From positions 1-64,000 of the forward strand of contig SCOE01000033.1 of the NCBI GenBank assembly GCA_005503065.1: 64,000 bases of DNA, given 5' to 3'. Numbering within the stretch: position 1 is the first letter of the stretch; each line of letters begins with the position of its first letter. Made by a program: the position numbers and the translations under genes. This document shows, piece by piece, positions 1 to 4,174 of the stretch. This DNA comes from Comamonadaceae bacterium ALPHA2B (GTDB lineage Bacteria; Pseudomonadota; Gammaproteobacteria; Burkholderiales; Burkholderiaceae_C). The notes below the pieces were generated by a model. The model made no database searches, was not told where the DNA came from, and saw only the letters and a list, made by a program, of their open reading frames with translations.

Positions 1-95
1 GGCACGGCCTTCAGCGAAGGCTTGGCCGGGGCGGCGGCGGGGGTGTCGGTGCGGGTGTCCGCATCGAGCGGCAGGTGGAAGACGGCGGCGACCAT
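1..95 (-). CDS. nrtB: Nitrate ABC transporter permease, N-terminal fragment (NrtB-like)
   Basis: Only the first 31 codons are inside the window; the gene runs off the left edge on the minus strand. The readable peptide starts MVAAVFHLPLDADTRTD and is a polar, Ala/Pro-rich N-terminus without a membrane segment yet, as is common for the cytoplasmic leader of NrtB permeases. The call rests mainly on position: it starts 35 bases after the stop of the NrtA-type receptor gene and in the same direction, where nrtB is expected. It would form the inner-membrane channel for nitrate, nitrite or cyanate uptake. Identity cannot be proven from this fragment. Confidence 0.55.
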   Translation of the reverse strand, partial: MVAAVFHLPLDADTRTDTPAAAPAKPSLKAV

Positions 96-130: not shown

Positions 131-1381
131 TCAGCCCATCTGGACCTTGAAGGACTCGGCGTACTTCTTCGGGTCCTTGCCGTCCCAGACGATGCCGTCC
201 ATCAGCTTGCTGCTGCGCATCGGGCTGGCGGGCACGGGGGTCTTGGTGGCGGCGGCGGCCTGCTTGTACAGGTCGATGCGGTTGATCTCGGTGGCGACCT
301 TGAGGTAGTCGGGGTGCTCCTTGAGCAGGCCCCAGCGCTTGTGCTGCGTGAGGAACCACATGCCGTCGGAGAGGTAGGGGAAGGTGACGGCGCCGTCGGC
401 GTAGAACTTCATGTGGTTGGGGTCGTCCCAGCTCTTGCCCAGGCCGTTGGTGTAGCGGCCCAGGATGCGCTGGTTGATCGCGTCGACGCTGGTGTTGACG
501 TAGCTCTTGTCGGCGATGGTCTCGGCCATCTTGTTCTTGTTCTGCAGGCCGGCGTCGATCCACTTGCCGGCCTCCAGGATGGCGGCCGTCACGGCGCGCG
601 CCGTGTTGGGGTATTTCTTCGTGAATTCGGCGGTGGTGCCCAGCACCTTCTCAGGGTGGTCCTTCCAGATGTCCTGGGTGGTGATGGCCGTGATGCCGAT
701 GCCGTCCATGATGGCGCGCTGGCCCCAGGGCTCGCCCACGCAGAAGCCGTCCATGTTGCCCACGCGCATGTTGGCCACCATCTGCGGCGGGGGAACCACG
801 ATCGCCTTGGCGTCCTTCAGCGGGTTGATGCCGCTGGCGGCCAGCCAGTAGTAGAGCCACATGGCGTGCGTGCCGGTGGGAAAGGTCTGCGCGAAGGTGT
901 ATTCGCGCTTGTCGCTGGCCATCAGCTTGGCGAGCGAGGGACCGTCCACGGCGCCCTTGTCGGCGAGCTTCTTCGACAGCGTGATGGCCTGGCCGTTGTT
1001 GTTGAGGGTCATCAGCACGGCCATGTCCTTCTTGGGGCCTCCGACGCCCAGGTGCACGCCGTAGACCAGGCCGTAGAGGACATGGGCGAAGTCCAGTTCG
1101 CCATTGACCAGCTTGTCGCGCACGCCGGCCCAGCTCGCCTCCTTGCTGGGCACGATCTTCACGCCGTACTTCTTGTCGATGCCCAGCACCGAGGCCATGA
1201 CGACGCTGGCGCAGTCGGTCAGGGGGATGAAGCCGATCTTCACCTCCTCCTTCTCGGGCTTGTCGGAGCCCTGCGCCCAGACGGCGGCGCGCAAGGCGGG
1301 GTCGATGCCGACGGCGCCGGCGGCCGCCGCCTTGAGGACGGTGCGGCGGCTGAGCTTGCTGGGGATGAGGGATTCGGTCAT
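131..1381 (-). CDS. nrtA: Nitrate ABC transporter substrate-binding protein (NrtA-like)
   Basis: Predicted 416-residue periplasmic receptor of the NrtA/CmpA type, which binds nitrate or nitrite for an ABC importer. A twin-arginine signal (SRRTVLK, residues 10-16) is followed by an Ala-rich hydrophobic stretch ending near AVWAQ, so Tat export is likely. The mature part has the family's phrases KIGFIPLTDCASVVMAS, FAHVLYGLVYG and GYCVGEPW-like GFCVGEPWGQRA. The open frame extends 30 codons upstream, but that extension lies inside the leader terminator, so I start at the ATG at 1381. The gene follows a NIT-ANTAR regulator and precedes nrtB. Expression should depend on antitermination in the leader between 1382 and 1738. 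Confidence 0.9.
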   Translation of the reverse strand: MTESLIPSKLSRRTVLKAAAAGAVGIDPALRAAVWAQGSDKPEKEEVKIGFIPLTDCASVVMASVLGIDKKYGVKIVPSKEASWAGVRDKLVNGELDFAHVLYGLVYGVHLGVGGPKKDMAVLMTLNNNGQAITLSKKLADKGAVDGPSLAKLMASDKREYTFAQTFPTGTHAMWLYYWLAASGINPLKDAKAIVVPPPQMVANMRVGNMDGFCVGEPWGQRAIMDGIGITAITTQDIWKDHPEKVLGTTAEFTKKYPNTARAVTAAILEAGKWIDAGLQNKNKMAETIADKSYVNTSVDAINQRILGRYTNGLGKSWDDPNHMKFYADGAVTFPYLSDGMWFLTQHKRWGLLKEHPDYLKVATEINRIDLYKQAAAATKTPVPASPMRSSKLMDGIVWDGKDPKKYAESFKVQMG

Positions 1382-1430: not shown

Positions 1431-1506
1431 AAAACAAAAAAGGCGTCCTCAGCCCACAGAAGCCGTCGCATGTTGCGAGCAGCCCTTGCGGGTCGAGGAC
1501 GCCTTT
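1431..1506 (-). terminator. Intrinsic terminator in the nrtA leader (attenuator)
   Basis: On the minus strand, AAAGGCGTCCTC (1506-1495) pairs perfectly over 12 bp with GAGGACGCCTTT, followed by a broken T-run at 1440-1431. The apical part between the arms contains smaller helices, including CCC-GCAA-GGG. It sits 50 bases upstream of the nrtA start and after the regulator gene, so it would stop transcription before nrtAB unless melted. Its 5' arm overlaps the second ANTAR hairpin. Confidence 0.9.
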
Positions 1507-1541
1507 GTCCGTGTCGGCGGGCCGCACCCGCCTTTGGATGC
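1497..1541 (-). promoter_or_regulatory. ANTAR-responsive tandem hairpin leader RNA
   Basis: Minus-strand RNA forms hairpin P1 at 1541-1524 (GCATCC-AAAGGC-GGGTGC) and hairpin P2 at 1510-1497 (GGAC-AAAGGC-GTCC). Both have the identical hexaloop AAAGGC, which fits the known ANTAR-target rule of A at loop position 1 and G at position 4. P2 uses bases that also make the 5' arm of the terminator at 1431-1506, so P2 and the terminator are mutually exclusive. The neighbouring gene encodes a NIT-ANTAR protein, the expected ligand-controlled binder. In Klebsiella, NasR works this way on the nasF leader. Confidence 0.88.
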
Positions 1542-1738: not shown

Positions 1739-3028
1739 TCAGTGCCCGGGCAGGAACTCGGCCATCGCGAGCACCGATTCGGCAACCTCCACCAGCCGCC
1801 GGTTCTGGTTCATCGCGGTCTGGCGCAGCATCTTGTGCGCCTCTTCCTCGCTCAGGCGGCGATGGGCCATGAGCAGGCCTTTCGCGCGCTCGACCACCTT
1901 GCGTTCGTTGAGGCTGGCGCGCACCGTGGCCAGTTCGTCGCTCATCGCCTGCAGGCGGCGCGACTGCTCCTGCACCATGTCGAGGACCGAGCGCTCGAGG
2001 TGGCGGCCATAGCGCGAGCCGGCCGTGCCGGAGGCGTCGGCGAGTTCATCGCCGCCCGGCGGCGGCGCGGCATCGAAGAAGCCGGCCGGCATCGGCGCGC
2101 CGGCGTCCGTGCCCTGCGCCTGCACCGTGGCGAGCAGCGCCTCGTACTGTGCGAGCTCCGCGCGCGCCTGCGCGGTCTTGCGTTCGCACAGGCTGCGCAG
2201 TTCGTCGGCGAGGTGGTCCTCCACCAGGCGCATGGCGTCGATGCGGCGCGTGCAGCAGTCGAACCACACGGGACCGAGGTCGGGCACCAGCGCGCCGCCC
2301 GGCGCGGCGCAGCCGATGCGTCGCAGGCGTTCCAGCTCGGCCGTTCCGGCGCCGTCCTGCAGTTGCCGCCAATGCGCGCGCAGGGCCTCGTTGGCGAATT
2401 CGCTGAAGACCTCGAAGCAGCGCTCCTGCGACTCGATCAGGTGCAGCCACTGCTGGCGCTGCGCATCCTCGTTGCGCCCGCGGGTGAAGGCGGCGGCGCC
2501 GAAGGCACGCTCCTGGCCGGCGAGCTCCTTGCCCTGCATGAAGTTGAACATCGCGACCAGCCAGCGCGAGATCTGCGGGTCGGTCGCGCCGTCGGCGGCT
2601 TCGAAAACCAGCGCCAGCAGCCCGGCGATCAGCTTCACGAACGCGGCGGTGGCCTCGGCGGGCGGCATCTTCAGGGTCGCGATGCGCCCGCGCAATGCGG
2701 GCAGGCCCTCCAGCCCCGGCAGCACCCAGGCCACACGGCTGAACAGGCGCGCACCGTTGCCCAGGTGCTGCGGCTCGTGCTGGAGCGCGTCCAGGGCCGT
2801 GCGCACTTCCTGCGTGACGGCTTCACAGGCAGCGATCTGCTGCAGCCGCTGTTCTGCGAAGCGCGTGCCGCCGGAGCCGATGAAGACGTTGGAGATGCCG
2901 CGCTCCTTCTGCAGCGCGTGCACCAGGCGGCCGATGGTGCCGACCAGTGCGCTGGTGCGGCTGAGCTGGTCGAGCTCGTCGATCTCGCAACGGCGGGCGG
3001 CGACGAGGAAGGTGAGGCCGGAGGTCAT
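1739..3028 (-). CDS. nasR: NIT-domain/ANTAR transcription antiterminator (NasR-like)
   Basis: A 429-residue protein with an N-terminal NIT (nitrate/nitrite-sensing) region, roughly residues 25-300, beginning [20 protein letters not shown] and including the typical ERGISN motif. A linker of predicted helix leads to a C-terminal ANTAR RNA-binding domain at about 360-422 with [15 protein letters not shown]. In characterised relatives nitrate binding lets the ANTAR domain bind a two-hairpin leader RNA and prevent termination. The next gene downstream, nrtA, has exactly such a leader. The start is the ATG at 3028; no earlier in-frame start is apparent. It is divergent from tsaD across about 110 bases. 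The symbol is by analogy with Klebsiella. Confidence 0.9.
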
Positions 3029-3136: not shown

Positions 3137-4174
3137 ATGCGAATCCTGGGCATCGAATCCTCCTGCGACGAGACCGGCGTGGCGCTGGTGGAGAGTGGCG
3201 CCACGGGGGTGCCGCACCTGGTGGCGCATGCGCTGCACAGCCAGATTGCCATGCACCAGGCCTACGGCGGCGTGGTGCCCGAGCTGGCCAGTCGCGACCA
3301 CATCCGCCGCGTGCTGCCCCTGACCGAGCAGGTGCTGGGCGAAGCGGGCGTGGGCCGCGAGGCGATCGACGTGGTGGCCTACACGCGCGGGCCCGGCCTG
3401 GCCGGCGCGCTGCTGGTGGGCGCGGGCGTGGCCTGCGCGCTGGGCGCGGCGCTCGAGCGGCCCGTGCTGGGCGTGCATCACCTCGAGGGGCACCTGCTGT
3501 CGCCCTTCCTCAGCGCCGACCCGCCCGAATTTCCCTTCGTCGCCCTGCTGGTGTCGGGCGGCCACACGCAGCTCATGCGGGTGGAAGGGGTGGGGCGCTA
3601 CGAGATCCTCGGCGAGACCATCGACGACGCGGCCGGCGAGGCCTTCGACAAGAGCGCCAAGTTGATGGGCCTTCCCTATCCGGGCGGGCCGTGGCTGGCC
3701 AAGCTGGCCGAGGGGGGCGACGCCGAGGCCTTCAGGCTGCCGCGCCCGCTGCTGCACAGCGGCGACCTGGACTTTTCCTTCGCCGGCCTGAAGACGGCCG
3801 TCCTCACCCAGGCGAAGAAGCTGGGCGACCAGTTGGAGGCCCGCAAGGCCGACCTCGCGGCCTCGACCCAGGCCGCGATCGTGGAAGTGCTGCTGCGCAA
3901 GTCGCTGGCCGCCCTGGACGAGACGGGCATGAAGCGCCTGGTCGTGGCCGGCGGCGTGGGGGCCAACCGGCTGCTGCGCAGCCAGCTCGATGCGGCCTGC
4001 GGCCGCCGTCGGGTGCGCGTGCACTATCCGGAGCTGCACCTGTGCACCGACAACGGCGCCATGATCGCCATGGCCGCGGCGATGCGGTTGCAGGCGGGGC
4101 TGGAGCAGGCGAGCGCGCGCTACGCCTTCGACGTCAGGCCGCGTTGGGCACTGGACTCGCTGCCAGCGGCGTAG
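3137..4174 (+). CDS. tsaD: tRNA N6-adenosine threonylcarbamoyltransferase TsaD
   Basis: A 345-residue protein of the Kae1/Gcp/TsaD family, which with TsaB and TsaE transfers threonylcarbamoyl to A37 of ANN-decoding tRNAs. The start [18 protein letters not shown] is canonical. Metal-binding HHLEGH lies near residue 115, followed by [26 protein letters not shown] and [10 protein letters not shown] near the end, all as in active enzymes. The frame is open far upstream through the antisense regulator gene, but the family start is clearly the ATG at 3137. The 3' end overlaps the convergent hydrolase gene by 41 bases, so the two share coding DNA on opposite strands. Confidence 0.97.

Follow-up and report, generated by a model that had tools for sequence, protein, structure and literature searches.

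What does the DNA between a NIT-ANTAR regulator gene and the nrtA gene of a soil bacterium of the Comamonadaceae encode, and could it place the transporter under the control of the protein encoded upstream? We addressed this question in a 64-kb stretch of DNA (the window), whose minus strand carries, in order, the NIT-ANTAR gene, a gap of 189 nt, a leader at 1549-1431, nrtA at 1381-131 and the start of nrtB. Judged from the sequence tests described below, it is highly probable that the leader is an ANTAR attenuator of the NasR/nasF type that serves a nitrate-assimilation operon. The locus thus offers a contiguous set of sensor, RNA target and target gene in cultivable Comamonadaceae.

The nrtA-like gene (131-1381, minus strand) encodes an ABC transporter substrate-binding protein (Pfam NMT1_2, 1.3e-101). 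The start of nrtB (1-95, minus strand) is cut by the end of the window and contig (64,046 bases), and its first residues resemble those of nrtB in L036, itself a TIGR01183 match. This locus, from Xenophilus aerolatus, is the closest named relative (96%); there, nrtA precedes genes for a permease and an ATPase, which score above the TIGR01183 and TIGR01184 cut-offs, and the ATPase gene is in turn followed by one for an oxidoreductase of 438 aa with NirB as its best family (TIGR02374, 428 bits; cut-off 578). The latter frame (L036:10843-12159, after nrtD) corresponds to the first half of NirB only and ends at a stop, and it may be a separate reductase subunit. At the other end of the window locus, tsaD (3137-4174) adjoins the NIT-ANTAR gene divergently.

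The NIT-ANTAR gene (1739-3028, minus strand) encodes a NasR-type nitrate-responsive antiterminator of 429 aa with matches to Pfam NIT (E 4.9e-59) and ANTAR (E 2e-20), and K. oxytoca NasR, whose structure is solved (4akk), matches it across both domains (E 2.3e-52). A first-pass annotation had placed such a gene just upstream of the leader, with sensor, target and transporter contiguous, and the domain matches agree with it. In its own genome (G000) the gene is the sole ANTAR match at E 0.001. The protein retains the NasR stretches ERG and GKELAGQER together with R176, Q194, R340, K341 and K347, and has Arg in place of NasR K345 and His in place of NasR W362. According to PMC7496416, from which we take the roles of the NasR ANTAR residues and of Q194, K345R was like wild type and W362A lowered RNA binding by NasR. 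In the excerpts of PMC5424462, nasR is described as a mainly gammaproteobacterial gene; the window puts the NIT-ANTAR type in a large betaproteobacterial clade, beyond that description.

Anatomy of the leader

The leader, minus strand 1541-1431, contains two hairpins 13 nt apart with the same hexaloop AAAGGC, which has A in the first and G in the fourth position (A1 and G4). The inner P1 hairpin (1524-1541), read from the letters and the fold, pairs GCAUCC (1541-1536) with GGGUGC (1529-1524) in 6 bp, one of them U-G, and closes the first hexaloop at 1535-1530. Around it the fold adds two outer 3-bp helices, giving an extended P1 hairpin at 1516-1549, the outer pairs of which are kept in part among relatives. 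The linker (1523-1511) leads to P2, the antiterminator hairpin (1497-1510), with GGAC (1510-1507) and GUCC (1500-1497) forming 4 bp around the second hexaloop at 1506-1501. The intrinsic terminator (1431-1506) has a base of 12 bp with zero mismatches, AAAGGCGUCCUC (5' arm, 1506-1495) pairing with GAGGACGCCUUU (3' arm, 1450-1439); above this base the arms extend as a longer interrupted stem, and a U-rich tail runs to 1431. P2 and the terminator have the stretch 1506-1497 in common, and 49 nt separate 1431 from the nrtA ATG at 1381. The twin loops, the 13-base linker and the overlap of P2 with the 5' arm of a 12-bp terminator were all as the first-pass annotation had described them, its distance of 50 bases to the start codon being 49 nt.

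The fold of 1510-1434 has a predicted energy of -48.7 kcal/mol (z -7.9), which 0 of 200 shuffles match. P2 by itself is weak (-5.4 kcal/mol), with 16 of 200 shuffles as good. A composite scan was made for two A1/G4 hexaloops with stems of at least 4, a C-G closing pair, a linker of at most 20 and an overlapping T-tailed inverted repeat; its single place in the 64-kb window is this leader, and 40 Markov-1 randomised windows contained no instance. Hexaloop pairs without a terminator occur three times in the window, against a mean of 0.55 and a maximum of 2 in 40 Markov-1 windows. A simple terminator scan of the window did not list the 1506-1439 hairpin, probably because that scan takes loops of 3-8 nt only. 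An anti-P1 hairpin, in which the 3' side of P1 would pair with the linker (GGCGGGU/GCCCGCC), was dropped, its linker half being broken in L003-L006 and the leader from 1549 preferring P1.

Twin A1/G4 hexaloop ANTAR leaders are established (PMC3369931, PMC3369936, PMC8934654), and in its anatomy the window leader agrees with published descriptions of eut, amiE and nasF leaders (PMC3369931, PMC3369936). In eut leaders the linkers are 5-12 nt, and linkers of 3 and 14 nt drastically lowered eutP induction (PMC3369931). The 13 nt of the window leader thus stand at the edge of EutV tolerance, unless the outer P1 helices (1549-1516) form, in which case the free linker would shrink to 5 nt. Some ANTAR targets are terminator-less and lie near or over ribosome-binding sites (PMC3369931), so that here too the regulator might control translation or the stability of the RNA, with a terminator that is only partial. 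However, the hairpin that P2 overlaps is strong and ends in a U-rich tail, and the element stops short of the start codon by the 49 nt given above, and we regard such a mode of action as very improbable.

The covariance-model search that had been proposed as a check gave a divided result. Rfam returned no match over the whole 64-kb window at gathering thresholds. The closest sub-threshold matches of the leader were narK RNA (RF03032; 23 bits, E 0.024, gathering cut-off 43.2 bits) and P11 (RF00625; 17.6 bits, E 0.091, gathering cut-off 70 bits). A model built here, R1, matches the leader strongly, but the match is not independent since R1 was built from this and related leaders.

Conservation, covariation and a proposed exchange of the regulator

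A protein search matched 29 of 40 genomes, including the window's own, and among the 39 relatives 15 have a full-length NIT-ANTAR orthologue. The leader is present in all 15 orthologue loci, 13 by scan and two (L007, L016) by reading. A protein scan of genome contigs confirmed 142 of 189 stretches, and the best 80 loci were kept, which include Xenophilus, Pseudacidovorax, Variovorax, Polaromonas, Ramlibacter, Pseudorhodoferax, Xylophilus and others. R1 was derived from 14 sequences, of which six came from short-ANTAR loci. It places the leader downstream of the gene at 78 of these 80 loci; in L057 and L059 the contigs end 267 and 75 nt past the gene. Sources of R1 recur among the 80 loci, so the hits in Xenophilus and Pseudacidovorax are not independent, while Variovorax and Polaromonas did not feed the model. 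The leader is well supported in Comamonadaceae.

Twin hexaloops with stems were found by script in 76 of the 78 leaders of relatives, and the other two (L085, L102) have one P1 mismatch. A1 and G4 occur in both loops of all 78, by a script that requires them in 76 and by eye in L085 and L102. Over the 76 leaders, the P1 loop begins with A (76), A (75), a variable letter and G (76), and the P2 loop reads A (76), A (76), A (63) or C (13), G (76), G (76) and C (76). Conservation of both hexaloops in relatives, on which the first-pass annotation depended, is thus seen in the orthologue loci and in the best loci alike. The linker spans 7-40 nt among script-counted elements, varying with how far P1 was extended.

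The leader alignment comprises 16 sequences in 15 distinct rows. In the 15 distinct rows, 6 of the 12 P1 pairs have changed on both sides. The covariation score for P1 and P2 together is 0.221 against a shuffle mean of 0.105, is reached by 0 of 500 shuffles and falls to at most 0.074 when slid, although kinship alone can beat shuffles. Some P1 pairs fail, namely the inner pair 10-25 in 5 of 15 rows and the outer pairs 3-32 in 5 of 14 and 5-30 in 8 of 15. The four P2 pairs show no change in 15 rows, and P2 is without covariation support because these pairs never vary; a fifth pair that could be added is missing from 7 of 15. Among relatives, 99.4% of terminator cells are paired, and two pairs show both-side changes. 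In L017, the P2 loop is AACGGC, and the matching terminator pair shifts from A-U to C-G.

Seven further loci were scanned outside the family. The leader was found by script in L199-L201 and with an imperfect stem only in L204 (the same leader as L192); it was not found within the 700 nt scanned in L202, L203 and L205.

In the window's own genome, R1 scores 114.5 bits at this leader and 21.3 bits at the next best place, which resembles coding DNA by eye, and a single sense-strand match lies below E 0.001 (150 of 8375 first-look candidates scored). L117 (E 0.008), tried as a further target in this genome, resembles by eye coding DNA for an acyl-CoA dehydrogenase. Opposite-strand matches (model 44-111) were rejected as the terminator palindrome read in reverse, and the weak matches L195-L197 (G012, G011, G003) and L180 resemble by eye ordinary terminators without P1. 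At E 0.001, R1 matches 26 of the 40 genomes, own included. Second leaders precede a NirB-like frame truncated where the contig ends in L048 (542 bits), a transporter whose best family is NarK in L113 (TIGR00886, 233 bits; cut-off 311.7) and another NarK-like transporter in G030 (L178, 295 bits). In G017, a second leader (L181) lies about 6.7 kb downstream of the first, before DNA that looks nirB-like by eye; its P2 loop is GAAGGC, with A1 replaced by G.

In other Burkholderiales, an ANTAR protein of 191-233 aa is followed by a like leader and then by an nrtA-like gene (L019, L020, L023-L027, L030). Among the 14 loci without a full-length NIT-ANTAR protein (L018-L031), the leader was found by scan in L019, L023, L024 and L026 and by reading in L020, L025, L027 and L030. 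It was not accepted in L018, L021, L022, L028, L029 and L031, of which L021 and L028 have A1/G4 hairpins (79 nt apart in L028). Alignment A2 left out L020 and L025, whose P1 is ambiguous, and eight near-identical NIT-ANTAR leaders (L003-L006, L010, L012-L014). Three of these short, NasT-like ANTAR proteins were tested for a receiver domain, which scores above the cut-off in L019 and L024 and below it in L023. The nrtA-like gene of L024 matches NMT1_2, and those at the other short-ANTAR loci were called by eye. From this architecture we infer that the sensor has been exchanged between NIT-ANTAR and short ANTAR proteins over a constant RNA target. Such an exchange makes the specificity between ANTAR proteins and RNA testable, as proteins with different sensors should interchange on the same leader. 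In one relative, G021, a protein (L029:1141-2385) bears a PilJ domain C-terminal to its ANTAR domain, which is an uncommon arrangement of ANTAR and putative sensor.

Promoter motif and a proposed double gate

Between the NIT-ANTAR gene and the leader, the minus strand carries a sigma-54 (-24/-12) promoter motif, TGGCACGGCGCTTGCA, at 1582-1597, which agrees with 11 of 11 consensus positions, and a tentative NtrC-like site, GCGCCTGATTGGTGC, at 1719-1733, with 10 of 12. Both were scored against the sigma-54 and NtrC consensus sequences. A sigma-54 score of at least 10/11 is reached between gene and leader in 79 of 79 cases (the window and the 78 leaders) against 1 of 395 base-shuffled sequences. 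NtrC-like sites of at least 9/12 occur in 74 of 79 against 43 of 395 shuffled, being enriched but not decisive. The end of the sigma-54 motif lies 7-38 nt before the model start in the 79 leaders, implying that P1 is near the beginning of the transcript, and in the window transcription may start at about 1571. The window's own genome encodes NtrC and RpoN, both above their family cut-offs.

These data bear on whether the hairpin is an ordinary terminator of the NIT-ANTAR transcript, with coincidental twin hexaloops and with nrtA served by its own downstream promoter. The terminator does sit between both genes, and its arm would constrain the P2 loop and 3' strand in any case. However, the sigma-54 motif lies upstream of the terminator in every one of the 79 leaders, P1 covaries, and the 5' strand of P2, GGAC, is invariant in the 15 rows while lying outside the terminator. 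The composite element was also absent from the 40 random windows, and the same leader stands before nrtA-like genes in relatives with other ANTAR regulators. A simple promoter scan found none in the 49 nt between the terminator and nrtA. We consider the ordinary-terminator explanation slightly less probable still than an action on translation or stability.

We return to the ANTAR attenuator, for which the following course of events can be proposed. Under nitrogen limitation, NtrC and the sigma-54 polymerase would initiate near 1571, and the RNA polymerase would yield P1, P2 and the long terminator in that order. When nitrate is absent, 1506-1439 would fold as the terminator, and transcription would end near 1431. 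When nitrate or nitrite is present, the NIT-ANTAR dimer would release both of its ANTAR domains, which would grip the A1/G4 loops of P1 and P2. With P2 held closed, its loop and 3' strand would be withheld from the 5' arm of the terminator, which would allow read-through into nrtA. As the sigma-54 motif precedes the leader in all 79 cases, the leader is probably a double gate, in which nitrogen shortage is required for initiation and nitrate, subsequently, for elongation.

The first-pass annotation had called the element an ANTAR antitermination leader and had presented it as an extension of the Klebsiella nasR-nasF mechanism to an ABC importer. The architecture and the mechanism are supported by the sequence tests, whereas the claimed extension does not stand. 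In Klebsiella, the first genes of the nasF operon, nasFED, already encode an ABC nitrate importer, and the nitrate-assimilation operon of the window starts with an ABC importer in the same way. Moreover, Ramesh et al. (2012) already described ANTAR targets both from Burkholderia and ahead of nitrate/nitrite transporters (PMC3369931), and ANTAR leaders of this kind are known.

Compared with the K. oxytoca NasR-nasF system, the nasF leader being taken from its description, the window has the same one-component NIT-ANTAR regulator, two A1/G4 hexaloops and a P2 that overlaps the terminator; it differs in its betaproteobacterial host and in the replacement of W362 by His. NasT-type leaders before nasA are established as well (PMC3795266, PMC5424462), and in the NasS-NasT systems (Paracoccus nasA, Pseudomonas nirBD, Azotobacter) an ANTAR protein likewise acts on the leader RNA of nitrate assimilation genes. 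However, NasT lacks a nitrate-sensing domain and is held by NasS, whereas sensing and RNA binding are combined in one protein in the window. Enterococcus EutV-eutP is also a dual hexaloop ANTAR antiterminator, but it differs in its signal, in its phosphorylated response regulator and in its shorter linkers.

Relation to narK RNA and P11

The two nearest Rfam entries were examined for the same features. RF03032 matches were found in 34 of 300 genomes of the order under strict filters, three of them above the cut-off. ANTAR (PF03861) occurs in 148 of the 300 genomes, and all 34 RF03032-positive genomes are among them (hypergeometric 4e-12, a value that ignores relatedness). In 31 of the 34, the contig also carries the nearest listed ANTAR place, which is at most 600 nt away in 20 and at most 7 kb away in 30; it lies 4 Mb away in G201 and on another contig in G114, G122 and G218. 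Twin A1/G4 hexaloops are present in 32 of 32 narK loci examined (29 in the first scan and three short-contig loci), which comprise 30 of the 34 order hits plus L032 and L034. The Rfam narK RNA model pairs the first hairpin only, and the window leader scores below its gathering cut-off.

RF00625 matches were found in 10 of 274 genomes of the class, one of them above the cut-off. All 10 RF00625-positive genomes encode ANTAR. A search made with the window protein, and not with the ANTAR family, gave matches in 107 of 321 genomes of the class. Although P11 is catalogued as a Pseudomonas sRNA, most of the 10 loci have twin hexaloops and a sigma-54 motif like the window leader: twin hexaloops were found by script in seven and with an imperfect stem by eye in L186 and L192, and L190 has P2 only. 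Sigma-54 scores of at least 10/11 are reached in 26 of 27 narK loci (L032, L034 and the three short loci being left out) and in 9 of 10 P11 loci, these counts being without a shuffle control.

From the twin hexaloops, the co-occurrence with ANTAR and the sigma-54 motifs, narK RNA and P11 are best read as ANTAR leaders. More broadly, they are likely to be parts of one widespread proteobacterial attenuator, sigma-54-started and ANTAR-controlled, that stands before nrtA, narK or nirB-like genes and in which NIT-ANTAR and short Rec-ANTAR-type proteins have replaced one another as sensor over an unchanging RNA. If so, P11 would be the terminated leader, accumulating when nitrogen is short and nitrate is absent, and the comparison would suggest what narK RNA does and by what mechanism the timing of P11 production is set. 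The converse reading, in which the window leader would be a riboswitch for a metabolite or a small RNA in its own right and not the target of a protein, could appeal to the cis-regulatory and sRNA status of narK RNA and P11, respectively, and to the fact that terminated leaders can build up as short RNAs, but conservation is centred on two small hexaloop hairpins and the terminator and ANTAR proteins accompany narK matches in 34 of 34 genomes, making it the least probable of the explanations considered.

Parts of this comparison touch on earlier work. P11 has been reported as a trigger of inherited avoidance in C. elegans. A study by Romeo et al. in 2012 reportedly, by its title, deals with antitermination within the nirBD operon of P. 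aeruginosa, which fits P11 as an ANTAR leader, and narK RNA is said to have been described by Weinberg et al. in 2017. P11 is stated to regulate a nitrogen assimilation operon (PMC12080996, citing Marogi et al. 2024), and the P11 part of our reading may already be known. Our literature search turned up nothing that names narK RNA as the target of an ANTAR protein; the original narK RNA description was outside its coverage, so that an earlier mention is possible. Among the papers listed, those that join narK and 'ANTAR domain' concern Paracoccus.

The genes that follow the narK leaders vary. An nrtA/NasS-like motif follows in 19 of 30 narK loci. By eye, a NarK-type transporter lies downstream in L130, L136, L151 and L154, nirB in L127 and L150, and a reductase-like gene in L138, and no downstream gene was found by eye in L131 and L155. 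Other frames follow the narK leaders of L144 and L147. In L147, after about 1605, the leader of the narK-RNA/ANTAR type stands before an EAL-type c-di-GMP-like frame (by eye), outside nitrogen assimilation.
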